Assembly: GCF_008001235.1 (NCBI RefSeq)
Contig: NZ_CP040751.1
Location: 417,001-481,000 of the forward strand
Length of the DNA stretch: 64,000 nucleotides
Reading direction: 5' to 3'
Origin: Salidesulfovibrio onnuriiensis
Lineage (GTDB): Bacteria; Desulfobacterota; Desulfovibrionia; Desulfovibrionales; Desulfovibrionaceae
Shown here: positions 19,002 to 30,323 of the stretch, in pieces
Layout: every line of letters starts with the position of its first letter
How positions within the stretch are numbered: position 1 is the first letter of the stretch
The notes under the pieces: generated by a model
The model's database searches: none
Told to the model about the DNA's origin: nothing
The model's input: only the letters and a program-made list of their open reading frames with translations
Program-made: the position numbers and the translations under genes

Positions 19002-19790
19002 ATGACCGATATCATTCGAACCATCCTTGTGGACGACGAGCCGCCCGCCCGGGACGAGCTGGCCTATCTGCTCTCATCCCATGCGGACGTGGAGATCGTC
19101 GCCACGGCGGGCAACGCGGCCGAGGCCGTGAAGGCCATCCGCAGGCACGAGCCCGACCTGGTCTTTCTGGACATCCAGATGCCGGGCAGGAACGGCTTCC
19201 ACGTGCTGGGGGACGTGATGGGCATGGAGCATCCGCCCCTGGTCATCTTTGCCACGGCCTACGACGAATACGCCATCCGCGCCTTCGAGGAGAACGCGGT
19301 GGACTACATCCTCAAGCCCGTGGCCGAAAACCGGCTGGCCACCAGCCTGGACCGCGCCCGCGCCCGGCTCCGGGAGGATTCCCCCAAGGAGCGGGACGAC
19401 ACGGGCGAAGCCCTGCGCAAGCTGCTGGCCGGGGTGGGCATCAAAAAGGGCATCACCCGCATCAGCGTGGAGCATTCGGGCCGCAACGTACTCCTGAGCC
19501 CCCGCGAGGTGGTCTACTTCAACTACGAGAACCGCCGGGTCCACGCGGGAACCCGCGACGGCCTCTTTCCCTGCGCCGCGGACCTGACCCTGGACCGGCT
19601 CGAGGAGCGCCTGGACGGGTTCGCCTTTTTCCGGGCCAACCGCTCCCAGCTCGTGAACCTGGCCCAGGTGCGCACCTATGCGCCGTGGTTCAACGGCAAG
19701 TACGTGCTGACCATGGCCGACGCCCGGGAAACCGAAATCACCGTCAGCAAGTCCCGGGTGCGGGACTTCAAGGACGCCATAGAACTGTAA
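19002..19790 (+). CDS. LytTR-type response regulator
   Basis: 262 residues. Receiver domain 1-120 with acidic pair DDE (11-13), phospho-acceptor Asp57 in LVFLDIQMPG, and the ATAYDEYAI / DYILKPV switch residues. The LytTR DNA-binding domain covers about 160-260 (ENRRVHAGTRDGLFPC, LDGFAFFRANRSQLVNLAQV). It is of the BtsR/YpdB class. ATG 19002 follows GGGGGTG. The cognate kinase gene starts three bases after its stop. Direct repeats matching the YpdB site lie before cstA, making that carrier the likely target. Confidence 0.93.
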   Translation: MTDIIRTILVDDEPPARDELAYLLSSHADVEIVATAGNAAEAVKAIRRHEPDLVFLDIQMPGRNGFHVLGDVMGMEHPPLVIFATAYDEYAIRAFEENAVDYILKPVAENRLATSLDRARARLREDSPKERDDTGEALRKLLAGVGIKKGITRISVEHSGRNVLLSPREVVYFNYENRRVHAGTRDGLFPCAADLTLDRLEERLDGFAFFRANRSQLVNLAQVRTYAPWFNGKYVLTMADARETEITVSKSRVRDFKDAIEL

Positions 19791-19793
19791 TAC

Positions 19794-21494
19794 ATGGATA
19801 CCTTTGAAATCATACTGGCCCTGGCCGAACGCTTCGGCCTCATGGTGGGCGTGGTCTTCCTGCTCATGACCATCACGCCCGTGCAGCGCATGGACTTTTC
19901 CCGCGTGGAATCGCGCTGGCGCACCGTGCTGGTCATGCTCCTCTTCGGCACCTTCGGCATCCTGGGCACCTACACCGGCAACTCGGTGTTCCAGTCCGTG
20001 GCCAACCTGCGCGCCATGGTGGTCATCACCGGCGGTCTGTTCGGCGGCCCCGTGGTGGGCATCGGCGCGGGGCTCATTGCCGGGGCGCACCGCATCGCCA
20101 CGGACCTGCACGGGTTCAGCGCCTGGCCCTGCGGCATTGCCACGGCCCTGGAAGGGCTGGCGGCGGGCATGGTCTGCCTGTGGCTGCGCGAACGGGCCAT
20201 GAACTGGCGCATCGCCGCGGGCCTGGCCGTGCTCGGGGAGACCGTGCACATGCTCCTGCTGCTGCTCCTGGCCCGGCCCTTTGCCGATGCCGTGGAACTG
20301 GTGCGGCTCATCGCGCCGCCCATGCTCCTGGTCAACAGCGTGGGCGCGGCCCTGTTCGTGGAGGTCATCAACATCTTTTCCCGCGACCGGGAACGGCGGG
20401 AATCACTGCATGCGCAGCTGATCCTGGATATAGCCAACCTGACGGTCAGCTACCTGCGGTCCGGCCTGAGCCGCGCCACGGCGGAAGCCACGGCCGAAAT
20501 CATCCACCAGCGCGTGGGCGTGGGGGCCGTGGCCATCACCGACACCCGCAACGTGCTGGCCCACGTGGGCGAGGGCGGCGACCACCACCTGCCCGGCCAC
20601 GAAATCCGCACGGACGCCACCCGCCGGGTCCTGGAAACCGGCGAAGCCGTGTTCCTGCACACGGCCCGGGAGATCGGCTGCAACCATGCGGCCTGTCCCA
20701 TGACCTCGGGCATCATCGTGCCCCTGCACAAGGACGGCGGCGTCGTGGGTACGCTCAAGTTCTACGGCAGCGCCACGCGGCCTTTGAACAACACCCTGTT
20801 CGAGGTGGCCAAGGGATTGGGTAACCTCTTTTCCACCCAGCTGGAGCTGGAGGACATCCAGGTCAAGGAGCAGATGCTGGCCCATGCGGAAATCCGCCGC
20901 CTCCAGTCCCAGATCAACCCGCACTTCCTGTTCAACTCCCTGAACACCATCACCAGCTTCTGCCGCACCAACGCGGAACGGGCCCGCGAACTGCTCATGG
21001 ACCTTTCCCTGTACATGCGCCGCAACCTGGACCTGAGCCGGGGCTTCATCCCCCTGAGCGAAGAGCTGGAGCAGGTGCGCTCCTATCTGGCCATCGAGCA
21101 GGCCCGGTTCGGGGAACGCATCAAGGTGGACATGGACATTGCCGACGGCTGCCTGGCCTGGCCCATTCCGCCGCTCATCATCCAGCCCCTGGTGGAAAAC
21201 TCCATCCGCCACGGGGTGCTGGCCCAGGAGCGGGGAGGCACCGTGCGCGTGAGCGCGGCCCGGCGGGACGACTGCCTGGAGGTGACCATCTCGGACAACG
21301 GCGTGGGCATGGACCCGGAAACCGTGGCGCGCGTGCTCTCCCGCGAATGCGCGGACTCCCTGCACGACGGCATCGGCATGCGCAACTGCCTGAGCCGCCT
21401 GGAGCAGATCTACGGGCCGCAGTACAGCCCGGAGGTGACCAGCGCTCCTGGCCAGGGCACCTCCATCCGGCTGCGCATCCCGGAAAAGGCCTGA
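19794..21494 (+). CDS. LytS/YpdA-family sensor histidine kinase
   Basis: 566 residues. Six or so N-terminal helices (1-195) form the 5TM-5TMR_LYT sensor (NLRAMVVITGGLFGGPVVGI). A GAF-like domain (about 215-350) contains a short Cys/His stretch, EIGCNHAACPM. The kinase core has HAEIRRLQSQINPHFLFNSL, with the phospho-His near 377, and the HATPase motifs PLVENSIRHG and ISDNGVGMD. E. coli homologues BtsS and YpdA respond to external pyruvate. Three bases separate it from the regulator gene and 148 from cstA. Pyruvate as ligand is inferred. Confidence 0.92.
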   Translation: MDTFEIILALAERFGLMVGVVFLLMTITPVQRMDFSRVESRWRTVLVMLLFGTFGILGTYTGNSVFQSVANLRAMVVITGGLFGGPVVGIGAGLIAGAHRIATDLHGFSAWPCGIATALEGLAAGMVCLWLRERAMNWRIAAGLAVLGETVHMLLLLLLARPFADAVELVRLIAPPMLLVNSVGAALFVEVINIFSRDRERRESLHAQLILDIANLTVSYLRSGLSRATAEATAEIIHQRVGVGAVAITDTRNVLAHVGEGGDHHLPGHEIRTDATRRVLETGEAVFLHTAREIGCNHAACPMTSGIIVPLHKDGGVVGTLKFYGSATRPLNNTLFEVAKGLGNLFSTQLELEDIQVKEQMLAHAEIRRLQSQINPHFLFNSLNTITSFCRTNAERARELLMDLSLYMRRNLDLSRGFIPLSEELEQVRSYLAIEQARFGERIKVDMDIADGCLAWPIPPLIIQPLVENSIRHGVLAQERGGTVRVSAARRDDCLEVTISDNGVGMDPETVARVLSRECADSLHDGIGMRNCLSRLEQIYGPQYSPEVTSAPGQGTSIRLRIPEKA

Positions 21495-21502
21495 ACCGGG
21501 CC

Positions 21503-21554
21503 CGCGTTTCAGTCCGGCGAACCGGCATTTCAACCCTCCGAAAAGGCGTTTCAG
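21503..21554 (+). promoter_or_regulatory. three phased LytTR-type direct repeats upstream of cstA
   Basis: CGCGTTTCAG (21503-21512), GGCATTTCAA (21524-21533) and GGCGTTTCAG (21545-21554) begin exactly 21 bases apart, two helical turns. The E. coli YpdB site is GGCATTTCAT-N11-GGCATTTCAT, the same core and the same spacing. This strongly suggests the adjacent LytTR regulator binds here and activates cstA. The array begins eight bases after the kinase stop codon. Confidence 0.75.
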
Positions 21555-21642
21555 CCCGAATCCGTGGATCCGGATCCTAGAAATCTCCTACAAAGCCGCA
21601 AAAGCCGCCTGGCGGCCAAACTGCTTTTCGGAGGTTTCAACC

Positions 21643-23064
21643 ATGCTGTTCTTCTTTGCCTGTATCGCCCTGCTTGTGGTGGGTTACTACACCTACGGCA
21701 AGTTCATGGACCGCGTCTTTGCGCCGGACGCTTCCCGCACCACCCCGGCCTACGCCCTTCAGGACGGCATCGACTACATGCCGATGCCCAAATGGAAACT
21801 GATTTTCATCCAGGTGCTGGACATCGCGGGCATCGGCCCCATCTTCGGCCCCATCCTGGGCGCGCTGTACGGCCCGGCCGCCATGCTCTGGATCGTCATC
21901 GGCTGCATCTTCGCGGGTGCGGTGCACGACTACTTCAGCGGCATGCTCTCCCTGCGCAACAAGGGCGCTTCCGTGCCCGAGGTCGTGGGTGAATACCTGG
22001 GCATGTCCGCCCGCCAGGTCATGCGCGTGTTCTCCTTCGTGCTGCTCATGCTCGTGGGCGTGGTCTTCGTGCTCAGCCCGGCCAAGCTGCTCAACGGCCT
22101 GACCGGCATCGACACCGGCTACCTGGTGGCCGCCATCTTCGGGTACTATTTCCTGGCAACCATCCTGCCCATCGACAAGGTCATCGGCCGCATCTACCCG
22201 CTGCTCGGCGCACTGCTGCTGACCATGACCGTGGCCCTGGTCATCGCCCTGCTGGCGGGCGGCTACGAACTGCTGCCCAACCTGGACGTCATGACCAACG
22301 TGCACCCGGGCGACAAGCCTATCTGGCCGCTGCTGTTCATCACCCTGTCCTGCGGCGCCATCTCCGGATTCCACTCCACCCAGTCCCCGCTCATGGCCCG
22401 CTGCGTCAAGAACGAGCGCGAAGGCCGCTCCGTGTTCTACGGCGCCATGGTCATCGAAGGCATCATCGGCCTGATCTGGTGCACCATCGGCCTGTCCTTC
22501 TACGCTTCCCCGGAAGCCCTGTCCGCAGTCATCGCATCCGGCAGCCCCGCAGCCGTGGTGGCCGAAGTCTCCAACACCCTGCTCGGCTCCGTGGGCGGCG
22601 CGCTGGCCATCGCCGCCATCATCGTGCTGCCCATCACCTCGGGCGACACCGCGTTCCGCTCCACCCGCCTCATCGTGGCCGAGACCTTCAAGGTCAAGCA
22701 GGAAGCCACGGTCAAGCGCCTGCTGATCGCTGTGCCCCTGTTCGTGCTGGGGTACATCATCTCCACCCAGAACTTCTCCACCATCTGGCGCTACTTCGGC
22801 TTCGCCAACCAGAGCCTGGCCACCCTGGTGCTCTGGACCGCCGCCGTGTACCTGGCCCAGCGCGCCAAGCTGCACTGGATCGCCACCATCCCGGCCGTGT
22901 TCATGACCGCGGTCTGCGTGACCTTCATCTGCAACGCGCAGATCGGCCTGAACCTGGACTACACCATCTCCGTGGTCGCGGGCACAGCTGCCGCCGCCGT
23001 CGCCCTGGCTTTCTTCCTGGTCAAGTTCGTCATCACCAAGAAGCCTGCGACCGACGCCGCATAA
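21643..23064 (+). CDS. cstA: carbon starvation protein CstA family carrier (pyruvate/peptide uptake)
   Basis: 473 residues, the short form of the family (E. coli CstA and BtsT are about 700). It has over ten hydrophobic helices. Signatures are DIAGIGPIFGPILGALYGP, GAVHDYFSGMLSLRNKG, ISGFHSTQSPLMARC and LPITSGDTAFRSTRLIVAE. Such carriers import pyruvate or peptides by proton symport. GGAGG ends eight bases before the ATG. Context: BtsSR/YpdAB-like two-component genes immediately upstream plus three LytTR-like boxes, so a pyruvate-sensing and uptake module is the best reading. A terminator follows. Confidence 0.92.
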   Translation: MLFFFACIALLVVGYYTYGKFMDRVFAPDASRTTPAYALQDGIDYMPMPKWKLIFIQVLDIAGIGPIFGPILGALYGPAAMLWIVIGCIFAGAVHDYFSGMLSLRNKGASVPEVVGEYLGMSARQVMRVFSFVLLMLVGVVFVLSPAKLLNGLTGIDTGYLVAAIFGYYFLATILPIDKVIGRIYPLLGALLLTMTVALVIALLAGGYELLPNLDVMTNVHPGDKPIWPLLFITLSCGAISGFHSTQSPLMARCVKNEREGRSVFYGAMVIEGIIGLIWCTIGLSFYASPEALSAVIASGSPAAVVAEVSNTLLGSVGGALAIAAIIVLPITSGDTAFRSTRLIVAETFKVKQEATVKRLLIAVPLFVLGYIISTQNFSTIWRYFGFANQSLATLVLWTAAVYLAQRAKLHWIATIPAVFMTAVCVTFICNAQIGLNLDYTISVVAGTAAAAVALAFFLVKFVITKKPATDAA

Positions 23065-28155: not shown

Positions 28156-29904
28156 CTATTCTTCTGGGGGCTTGCCAAGCTCCCTGATCCGCCGGGCGTA
28201 TTCCCGCTTGAGGGCCGCCATGTATTCCGGGTCCACCTCGCCCTTCCAGGTGACCACCTCTTGGTAGCGCTTGGGAATGTCTACGGCGTCCGGGTCGTAG
28301 CCGGTCTCGATCCGGGTGCGCCAGCGCAGCCGCTGGATGTTCTCGCCCACCGAGTCCTGGTCCTGGGCCAGCCGGGCATAGCCCACGGATTCCAGCGCCT
28401 GCCCCAGCATGTCGTCGCCGTAGACGCCCCTGGCGAACAGGCAGGAGACCATGGCCGTGAGGAAACAGCGCTTTTTCTCGTCCTCCACCAGGAAGTCCAC
28501 GGCCCGCCGCACGTCCTTGTCCTCGTGCTTCTGGTCGTAGGAATAGCCGCCCGTGTCCAGGTGGGCGTGGCGGAACCCCAGGGCCTCGGCCACGAAAAAG
28601 ACCTCGCCCGTGGCGTATCCGGCCATTTCCTGGCCCAGCACGCAGGCGAAATCCGCGCCCCCCAGCACCGAGGCGGCCTTGAGCGTCCCCCGGGCCAGCA
28701 GGGCGTAGAAGTCGTTTTCGGCCCGGCCCAGGTGGACAATGGCCTTTTCATAGTTGGCCGCATCCCCGAAGCGGAGCGGCACAATGGTCTGCTCCTCGGT
28801 AAGGATGCCCTTTTCCAGTGCCTCGGTGGCCCAGGCCAGGGCCACGCCCGCGCTCATGACGTCCAGGCCCATGAGCTCCACGGTGTCCATGAGCTGCAGG
28901 GCGTTGAAGGAATCCGTGACCCCGAGCATGGAGCCCACGGCAAAGAGCAATTCGTAGTCGTAGCCCACCTGGCGATAGCGGTACTGGTAGTTCTTCTTGA
29001 ACTGCTCGCGGATGTAGCCGATGTGGATGCAGCCCACGGGACAGCCCGCGCAGGCCGCATTGCGCAGCAGGCGCTCCTCGGCCATCTTCTCGCCGGTGAT
29101 GCCGCCCGGCTCCGGGTCGTGGGTGGCCTGGAGGTTGCGCCAGGGCAGGCTTTTGAGCTCGTTGAGCGGTGCCACGTTTACCGCAGTCCCCAACCCGTGA
29201 TACTTGTTCATGATCTCAGTATCGGTAAGTTGTTGGTAAAGTGTCTGGAACAGCTTGGGATAGGCAGGGGTTTCGGGCAGGGCAAAGCCCCGGTCGCCCA
29301 GGATGACGATGGCCTTGAGATTTTTGCTGCCCATGACCCCGCCCGCGCCCATGCGCCCGAAGTGACGGTAGGTGTCCACGTTGATGCAGGCGTAGGCGCA
29401 GCCGTTTTCGCCCGCCGGACCGATGCGCAGCATGGAGCGGCGGCCCGAGCCCGGGAACATGGACCGGAGGATCTTGCCCGAGCTGAGCGTGTCGCGGCCG
29501 CGCAGGAATTCCACGTCCCGGATCTCGAAACGCCGCGCACCGATACACAGGGCGGAAAGCCGCCTGGCGCGGCCCTTGATGACCAGGGCGTCCATGTCCC
29601 CGAAGCGCATGGACAGGGCCGAGCGCCCGCCCGCGTGGGATTCGCTGTATTGGTCGTGGTAGGGGGACTTGAAGGCGCAGACCGTCTTGCTCATGAGCGG
29701 GAAATACCCCGTGAGCGGGCCTATGGCGAAAATCAGTGGCTGGTCCGGGTCGTCCCAGGGCCGGTCCGCATGACCGTATTCCCGGAAGAGCATGGCGGCC
29801 AGGCCGCCGCCCCCGGCCACCAGGTCGCGGCCCTCGTGCTCGGCCACGTTCATGCGTCCGCTGTCCAGGTCCACCACCGAAACTCGGAAGAAATCGCGGA
29901 TCAT
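28156..29904 (-). CDS. aldehyde:ferredoxin oxidoreductase (tungsten AOR family)
   Basis: 582 residues. Oxidises aldehydes to acids with a tungstopterin and a [4Fe-4S] cluster, passing electrons to ferredoxin. The pterin-binding N-domain has GPLTGYFPLMSKTVCAF, SPYHDQYSESHAGGR and RIGPAGENGCAYACI. Cluster ligands are CAGCPVGC (C-x2-C-x3-C near 283-290) plus a distal Cys in VSCLFARGVYGDD near 487. GRMGAGGVMGSKNLKAI is a family hallmark. ATG 29904 overlaps the ferredoxin stop by four bases. Aldehyde detoxification or reversible carboxylate reduction is plausible. Confidence 0.92.
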   Translation of the reverse strand: MIRDFFRVSVVDLDSGRMNVAEHEGRDLVAGGGGLAAMLFREYGHADRPWDDPDQPLIFAIGPLTGYFPLMSKTVCAFKSPYHDQYSESHAGGRSALSMRFGDMDALVIKGRARRLSALCIGARRFEIRDVEFLRGRDTLSSGKILRSMFPGSGRRSMLRIGPAGENGCAYACINVDTYRHFGRMGAGGVMGSKNLKAIVILGDRGFALPETPAYPKLFQTLYQQLTDTEIMNKYHGLGTAVNVAPLNELKSLPWRNLQATHDPEPGGITGEKMAEERLLRNAACAGCPVGCIHIGYIREQFKKNYQYRYRQVGYDYELLFAVGSMLGVTDSFNALQLMDTVELMGLDVMSAGVALAWATEALEKGILTEEQTIVPLRFGDAANYEKAIVHLGRAENDFYALLARGTLKAASVLGGADFACVLGQEMAGYATGEVFFVAEALGFRHAHLDTGGYSYDQKHEDKDVRRAVDFLVEDEKKRCFLTAMVSCLFARGVYGDDMLGQALESVGYARLAQDQDSVGENIQRLRWRTRIETGYDPDAVDIPKRYQEVVTWKGEVDPEYMAALKREYARRIRELGKPPEE

Positions 29905-30323
29905 GACGCCCCCTCCTCCTTGACGGAAATTTCCTTCATCTCCAGACAGTCGTGCGGACAAAAGGCCACGCAGCGCCCGCAATGGATGCAGACATAGGGA
30001 TTCACCAGGTGGTCCAGGAAAATGGCGTCCACCGGGCAGGCCGCGGCGCATTTGCCGCACCGGATGCACAGCTTGCGCTTCTGGATCACGCCGCCGCCCT
30101 TGCGCTGGGAAAGCGCGCCCGTGGGGCAGGCCTCGGCGCAGGGAGCCGGGGAGCAGGCCAGGCAGAGCTTGGCCTCGAACCCCGCGGCCATGCCGCCGGA
30201 CGAGCGGATGCGGATGCCCGCCTTGTTCCAGGAAAGCTGCTTGTGGACCAGCCGAGCGCAGGCCAATGAGCAGGAATGACAGCCGATGCACTGTTCCATG
30301 CGGGCCGCCGAGAGCTTTTTCAT
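29901..30323 (-). CDS. polyferredoxin, four [4Fe-4S] clusters (AOR electron-transfer partner)
   Basis: A 140-residue ferredoxin of the HycB/DmsB type. Sixteen cysteines are arranged in four sets: C12/15/18/22, C54/57/62/66, C86/89/92/96 and C112/115/118/122. The later ones pair in classical ferredoxin style (CIRCGKCAAACPVDAI, CIHCGRCVAFCPHD). No signal peptide, so it works in the cytoplasm. It immediately precedes and overlaps the AOR gene and is therefore its likely electron acceptor or a wire to another oxidoreductase. Confidence 0.9.
   Translation of the reverse strand: MKKLSAARMEQCIGCHSCSLACARLVHKQLSWNKAGIRIRSSGGMAAGFEAKLCLACSPAPCAEACPTGALSQRKGGGVIQKRKLCIRCGKCAAACPVDAIFLDHLVNPYVCIHCGRCVAFCPHDCLEMKEISVKEEGAS

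Follow-up and report, generated by a model that had tools for sequence, protein, structure and literature searches.

A conserved, phased LytTR-type operator upstream of a CstA-family carrier gene in Salidesulfovibrio onnuriiensis and related sulfate reducers

The phased LytTR boxes that precede a cstA gene of Salidesulfovibrio onnuriiensis are a real and well-conserved operator of a pyruvate-type switch already known in sulfate reducers, and the binding of the neighbouring regulator to these boxes, the activation of the carrier gene and the identity of the ligand in this organism are predicted from sequence. Our preferred reading, to which we would assign a probability of roughly 0.85, is that of a LytS/LytTR pair that responds to pyruvate and activates a single target, the adjacent CstA carrier. 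A first, sequence-only reading of this DNA had suggested that a sulfate reducer might use a pyruvate-sensing switch of this type, and this part of it stands, in that the gene block fits such a switch and the data available for D. vulgaris agree with it; as a novelty for sulfate reducers, however, the suggestion had been anticipated by reports from 2011 and 2023. What is new is the layout of operator and promoter in the group as a whole, the finding that a long form of CstA can be preceded by the same operator, the occurrence of an Ala in the kinase pocket throughout the group, and the frequency of arrays with at least three boxes. Pyruvate is a central electron donor in Desulfovibrionaceae and in some other Thermodesulfobacteriota, and the comparison establishes the likely operator and promoter geometry of a pyruvate switch for this family and for some other members of the phylum. 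Arrays of at least three boxes, in turn, are frequent among LytTR-controlled pyruvate carriers and vary between them, and one is found in E. coli btsT, the promoter of which is usually drawn with two sites.

The switch locus and its box array

In the window (the whole stretch of 64,000 nucleotides that was analysed), the regulator gene is followed by the kinase gene, the box array and cstA, so that the whole switch lies in one block (Table 1). Pfam searches identified all three protein families, and thus bore out the assignment of a LytS/LytTR pair next to a CstA-type carrier that had been made from the sequence. In the kinase, the match to GAF_2 fell slightly below the cut-off, and that to PF01590 (GAF) slightly above it, while the start of the regulator at 19002 was picked by homology, using an alignment. 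The carrier found its top NCBIfam match in the pyruvate/proton symporter CstA, under the cut-off of that model, and it is 32-35% identical to portions of E. coli BtsT; comparison by sequence with solved structures returned no match. Pyruvate would be the compound it transports, based on the fitness data for DVU0599 of D. vulgaris discussed below and on the E. coli relatives. Only two LytTR proteins are encoded in the 3.89-Mb genome. Elsewhere in the window, on the minus strand, an aldehyde ferredoxin oxidoreductase gene (AFOR_N and AFOR_C domains) spans positions 28156-30323 and is adjoined by the gene of a multi-[4Fe-4S] protein.

Table 1. Features of the switch block, in window positions
Feature	Position	Strand	Basis
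LytTR response regulator, 262 aa, receiver + LytTR, YpdB/BtsR-type	19002..19790	+	Pfam PF00072 and PF04397, over cut-off
LytS-type histidine kinase, 566 aa, 5TM-5TMR_LYT + GAF-like + His_kinase + HATPase	19794..21494	+	Pfam
Upstream (third) LytTR box, CGCGTTTCAG	21503..21512	+	Direct reading; in-phase profile score 8.9 bits
Middle LytTR box, GGCATTTCAA, conserved site A	21524..21533	+	Direct reading; 14.2 bits; kept in relatives
Promoter-proximal LytTR box, GGCGTTTCAG, conserved site B	21545..21554	+	Direct reading; 13.0 bits; kept in relatives
Predicted -35, TGGATC	21565..21570	+	Column conservation; weak match in this genome
Predicted -10, TACAAA	21589..21594	+	Conserved TA at +44/+45; 18-bp spacer
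Predicted ribosome-binding site, GGAGG	21630..21634	+	Direct reading
Short CstA-family carrier, 473 aa, predicted pyruvate importer	21643..23064	+	Pfam PF02554, E 6e-59

All three boxes fall into the 148 bp that separate the stop codon of the kinase gene from the start of cstA, and their positions are those that had been read from the sequence, with starts exactly 21 bp apart on the plus strand. A conserved A-tract lies just 5' of the promoter-proximal box. The likeness to the E. coli YpdB site, which had also been pointed out, was confirmed for both the core and the N11 spacing, given a consensus of GGCATTTCA and a period of 21 bp. The phased array is not a product of chance, though single boxes do sit at chance frequency: when up to one mismatch was allowed, 26 of them were observed in the window and 33 were expected. 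In-phase pairs, in contrast, are expected about 3e-5 times in 128 kb, and triples about 5e-10 times, based on simulated composition and on the per-site rate. In the whole 3.89-Mb genome, a spaced pair with fewer than three mismatches occurs only within this array, where there are two such pairs that overlap, and the search for further targets with up to three mismatches in the same genome returned three-mismatch matches at about the level of the reversed-pattern control. No chain was found upstream of the long CstA gene of the same genome (G000:C1:686016, L185).

Conservation of the operator and of the promoter layout

The boxes are kept before orthologous cstA genes of related genomes, which is where the sequence-only reading had proposed to look for them and where their lack would have counted against it. 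The order and adjacency of regulator, kinase and cstA are maintained in most of the Desulfovibrionaceae loci examined that carry a close kinase, and the same order is found in several Desulfocapsaceae and in other Thermodesulfobacteriota. In searches of 149 genomes, every kinase at least 49% identical comes with a CstA match, among the matches listed, and the three members of the genus that lack the kinase are devoid of CstA as well. A repeat scan that used no motif singled out a period of 21 bp, which occurred upstream of 19 out of 34 cstA genes against an expectation of 1.8, and no other period came close. Because a strict list of GGCRTTTCA sites missed many degenerate boxes, we instead trained a profile on the sequences upstream of the 34 kinase-linked genes, which yielded the consensus given above. 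At a threshold of 5 bits, a chain of at least two boxes was seen in 26/34 kinase-linked cstA promoters and one of at least three in 11/34, while in the remaining eight a second box was not reached; at the same threshold, the reversed-sequence control gave a chain of two in 1/34, and cstA genes without a regulator/kinase pair gave a chain in 0/25.

As the profile was trained on the same 34 regions that it scored, a cleaner test is provided by regions held out from it. In several genomes (L171-L181 and L184), open reading frames show that the gene after this regulator/kinase pair encodes another CstA, a long one with about 600 aa, which indicates that in other Desulfovibrionaceae the switch has changed carrier. 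In the 12 regions before these long genes, which had no part in profile learning but are not all independent, as some come from one genus, a 21-bp chain was present on the gene strand in 8/12 and on the other strand in 0/12. Because the chains recur before long CstA genes that have the same kinase, the boxes track the regulator and not the sequence of the carrier. Where the carrier gene is multiplied, one locus with two tandem cstA copies after the pair (L135), the arrangement described for D. vulgaris, has phased boxes (three to four) before the first copy only, and in another (L141), in which three tandem copies follow the pair, a chain was found before none of them.

Alignment of the 34 promoters on the last box (start = 0), which was chosen partly by eye, revealed boxes at -21 and 0 with weaker conservation at -42, an A-tract from -5 to -2, a T.GA motif from +20 to +23, with conserved T, G and A columns at +20, +22 and +23, and a TA at +44/+45. 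This layout is that of a sigma-70-like promoter in which 18 bp separate the two predicted elements and the -35 begins 20 bp past the start of the last box; in the window, transcription of cstA would hence begin near position 21601. The location of the boxes upstream of a weak -35 fits an activator.

Relation to known pyruvate switches

In the phylogenetic tree, the regulator groups with E. coli YpdB (support 100/98), and its grouping with BtsR was rejected (p-AU 0.002). This placement is good but not final because YpdB is a long branch, and it agrees with the YpdB-like box. With a YpdB-like regulator and box on one side, and a BtsT-like (CstA) carrier on the other, the system combines the two E. 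coli switches. We do not call the system YpdAB itself, as the adjacent target is CstA and not the MFS carrier YhjX. In E. coli, the YpdA/YpdB (PyrS/PyrR) system that controls yhjX has GGCATTTCAT boxes with an 11-bp spacer, which agree in core and 21-bp period with those of the locus described here, and likewise a single target; its target, however, is an unlinked MFS carrier and not an adjoining CstA, and its gene order is kinase-regulator instead of regulator-kinase. The BtsS/BtsR system shares with this locus a carrier of the CstA family as its target, for pyruvate in E. coli and by prediction here, 35% identity between the kinases, and the Arg, Arg and Cys residues of the pocket. Its boxes, in contrast, read ACC(G/A)CT(C/T)A and not GGCATTTCA, BtsR sits on the other branch of the tree, btsT is unlinked, and BtsT has 716 aa whereas the CstA found here has 473. 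The operators of CoxC and RcoM resemble the present one in having three direct repeats with a 20-21 bp period that are bound by LytTR domains (PMC11347149), although binding is predicted in our case; these proteins are one-component CO sensors that use another repeat sequence, and CoxC represses.

For one sulfate reducer, D. vulgaris Hildenborough, a chip-based study of affinity-purified DNA reported that the LytR-type regulator DVU0596 has as targets two cstA genes, which follow its own operon (PMC3333781), and additionally the kdp operon (PMC3333781); the main text of that paper gives no motif or operator sequence for it. In genome-wide fitness data, DVU0599 (cstA) and DVU0596:DVU0597 have pyruvate-specific phenotypes (PMC10102598), and the authors of that study put DVU0599 forward as a transporter of pyruvate (PMC10102598). 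As in our window, the D. vulgaris locus consists of a LytR-type regulator and kinase operon (DVU0596/DVU0597) followed by CstA (DVU0598/DVU0599), from which it differs by its two tandem cstA copies and the reported kdp target. Due to the latter, a single-target switch does not fit D. vulgaris. Based on family, gene order and the tree of relatives, the genes of the window are probably orthologous to DVU0596-0599.

At 35% identity, the kinase is equally close to BtsS and YpdA of E. coli. Its residues Arg73, Arg100, Cys113 and His377 align with Arg72, Arg99, Cys110 and His382 of BtsS, in which Arg72, Arg99, Cys110 and Ser113 are required for pyruvate (PMC10653868). At the position of Ser113 stands Ala116, so that three of the four pocket residues are kept. 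The codon for Ala116 occupies window positions 20139-20141.

Proposed mechanism, rival readings and the number of boxes

In the mechanism that we propose, the membrane domain of the kinase would sense pyruvate outside the cell, or an acid that closely resembles it, and the kinase would phosphorylate the YpdB-like regulator, which in turn would bind to the direct repeats, two helical turns apart and on the same side of the helix, beside a promoter with a weak -35. The bound regulator would then turn on the CstA carrier and, with it, the import of pyruvate. The two promoter-proximal boxes would serve as the core operator, and the third, upstream box would be an in-phase addition to it, optional and probably of use for cooperativity of binding or for sensitivity.

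The same operator and regulator could also serve a signal that is not mainly pyruvate, such as lactate, another 2-oxo acid or several compounds, in which case the carrier would import that compound instead. Such a possibility is raised by the position of BtsS Ser113, which is Ala in 31/31 kinases of the sulfate-reducer group, Ser in 43/44 others and Thr in YpdA, and by the remark of the BtsS authors that changes in pocket residues might shift specificity, for example to lactate (PMC10653868). Nonetheless, the equivalents of Arg72, Arg99 and Cys110 are invariant in the same 31/31 kinases, YpdA responds to pyruvate in spite of its Thr (PMC5552118), and the phenotype of regulator, kinase and carrier in D. 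vulgaris is pyruvate-specific (PMC10102598), all of which makes a different signal rather improbable. Even less probable, in our opinion, is that the boxes are a repressor site from which the regulator blocks cstA until the signal comes. Although the three-repeat LytTR operators of CoxC do repress (PMC11347149), the CoxC sites overlap the -35, whereas every box here lies upstream of it, as is the case for activators; the weakness of the -35 is what would be expected where an activator is needed, and YpdB activates from two repeats with equal spacing. As for a chance repeat unrelated to the neighbouring regulator, to which the chance frequency of single boxes in the window might seem to point, its probability is negligible in view of the expectation for triples, the conservation and promoter geometry of the boxes, their absence before unlinked cstA genes and their recurrence with long CstA.

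The role of the third box within the activator switch that we favour is a separate matter. The sequence-only reading had presented three rather than two sites as a peculiarity of this locus, a view that we abandoned, as about a third of the relatives have at least three boxes (10 to 13 of the 34 linked promoters, depending on the threshold) and so do other BtsR and LytTR arrays. In gamma-proteobacterial cstA promoters, boxes of the form ACC(G/A)CT(T/C)A are 20 or 21 bp apart, and at least three are present in 39/63 of these promoters, many of which are close relatives, while the reversed control never exceeded two. E. coli btsT (MG1655, L170) carries GCCGCTCA, ACCGCTTA and ACCACTCA, spaced 20 and 21 bp, and for E. 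coli yhjX a weak third box, CGTCATTCAT, could be recognised by eye 21 bp upstream of the two published sites. Three-repeat LytTR operators are, moreover, known for RcoM and CoxC (PMC11347149). With third boxes so common in relatives, in gamma-proteobacteria and in RcoM/CoxC, having three instead of two is not a distinguishing feature.

It is conceivable, if on balance unlikely, that only the two proximal boxes work, and that the box at 21503 is a functionless match due to chance or a relic. Its profile score is the weakest of the three (8.9 versus 14.2 and 13.0 bits), the close relatives L115, L118 and L123 have no clear third box, and box number, which ranges among relatives from one or two up to five, underwent at least eight changes across the regulator tree, with states assigned partly by eye. 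Against this, the third in-phase positions, -21 and +42 relative to the best pair, exceed 4.8 bits in 5/34 and 7/34 promoters, compared to 0-2 at other offsets, and arrays of three or more in-phase boxes are frequent in the BtsR-type promoters mentioned above and never occur in their reversed control. Judging from in-phase occupancy and frequent changes, third boxes are real as a class, and yet optional. More generally, we would tentatively propose, at somewhat less than even odds, that LytTR pyruvate switches use phased arrays of variable length, from two to seven boxes at 20-21 bp, in which length would tune sensitivity or pulse shape, that the operator follows the regulator when the carrier changes from short to long CstA, and that the third box here is a functional tuning element. 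As box number varies across LytTR-controlled pyruvate carriers, its role is directly testable. In E. coli btsT, the third box GCCGCTCA is located 20 bp upstream of two ACC(G/A)CT(C/T)A boxes, and in Vibrio several cstA promoters (L086, L090, L092, L096, L098 and L106) contain, well in excess of the two drawn for E. coli, six to seven phased boxes of the BtsR type with a spacing of 20-21 bp.
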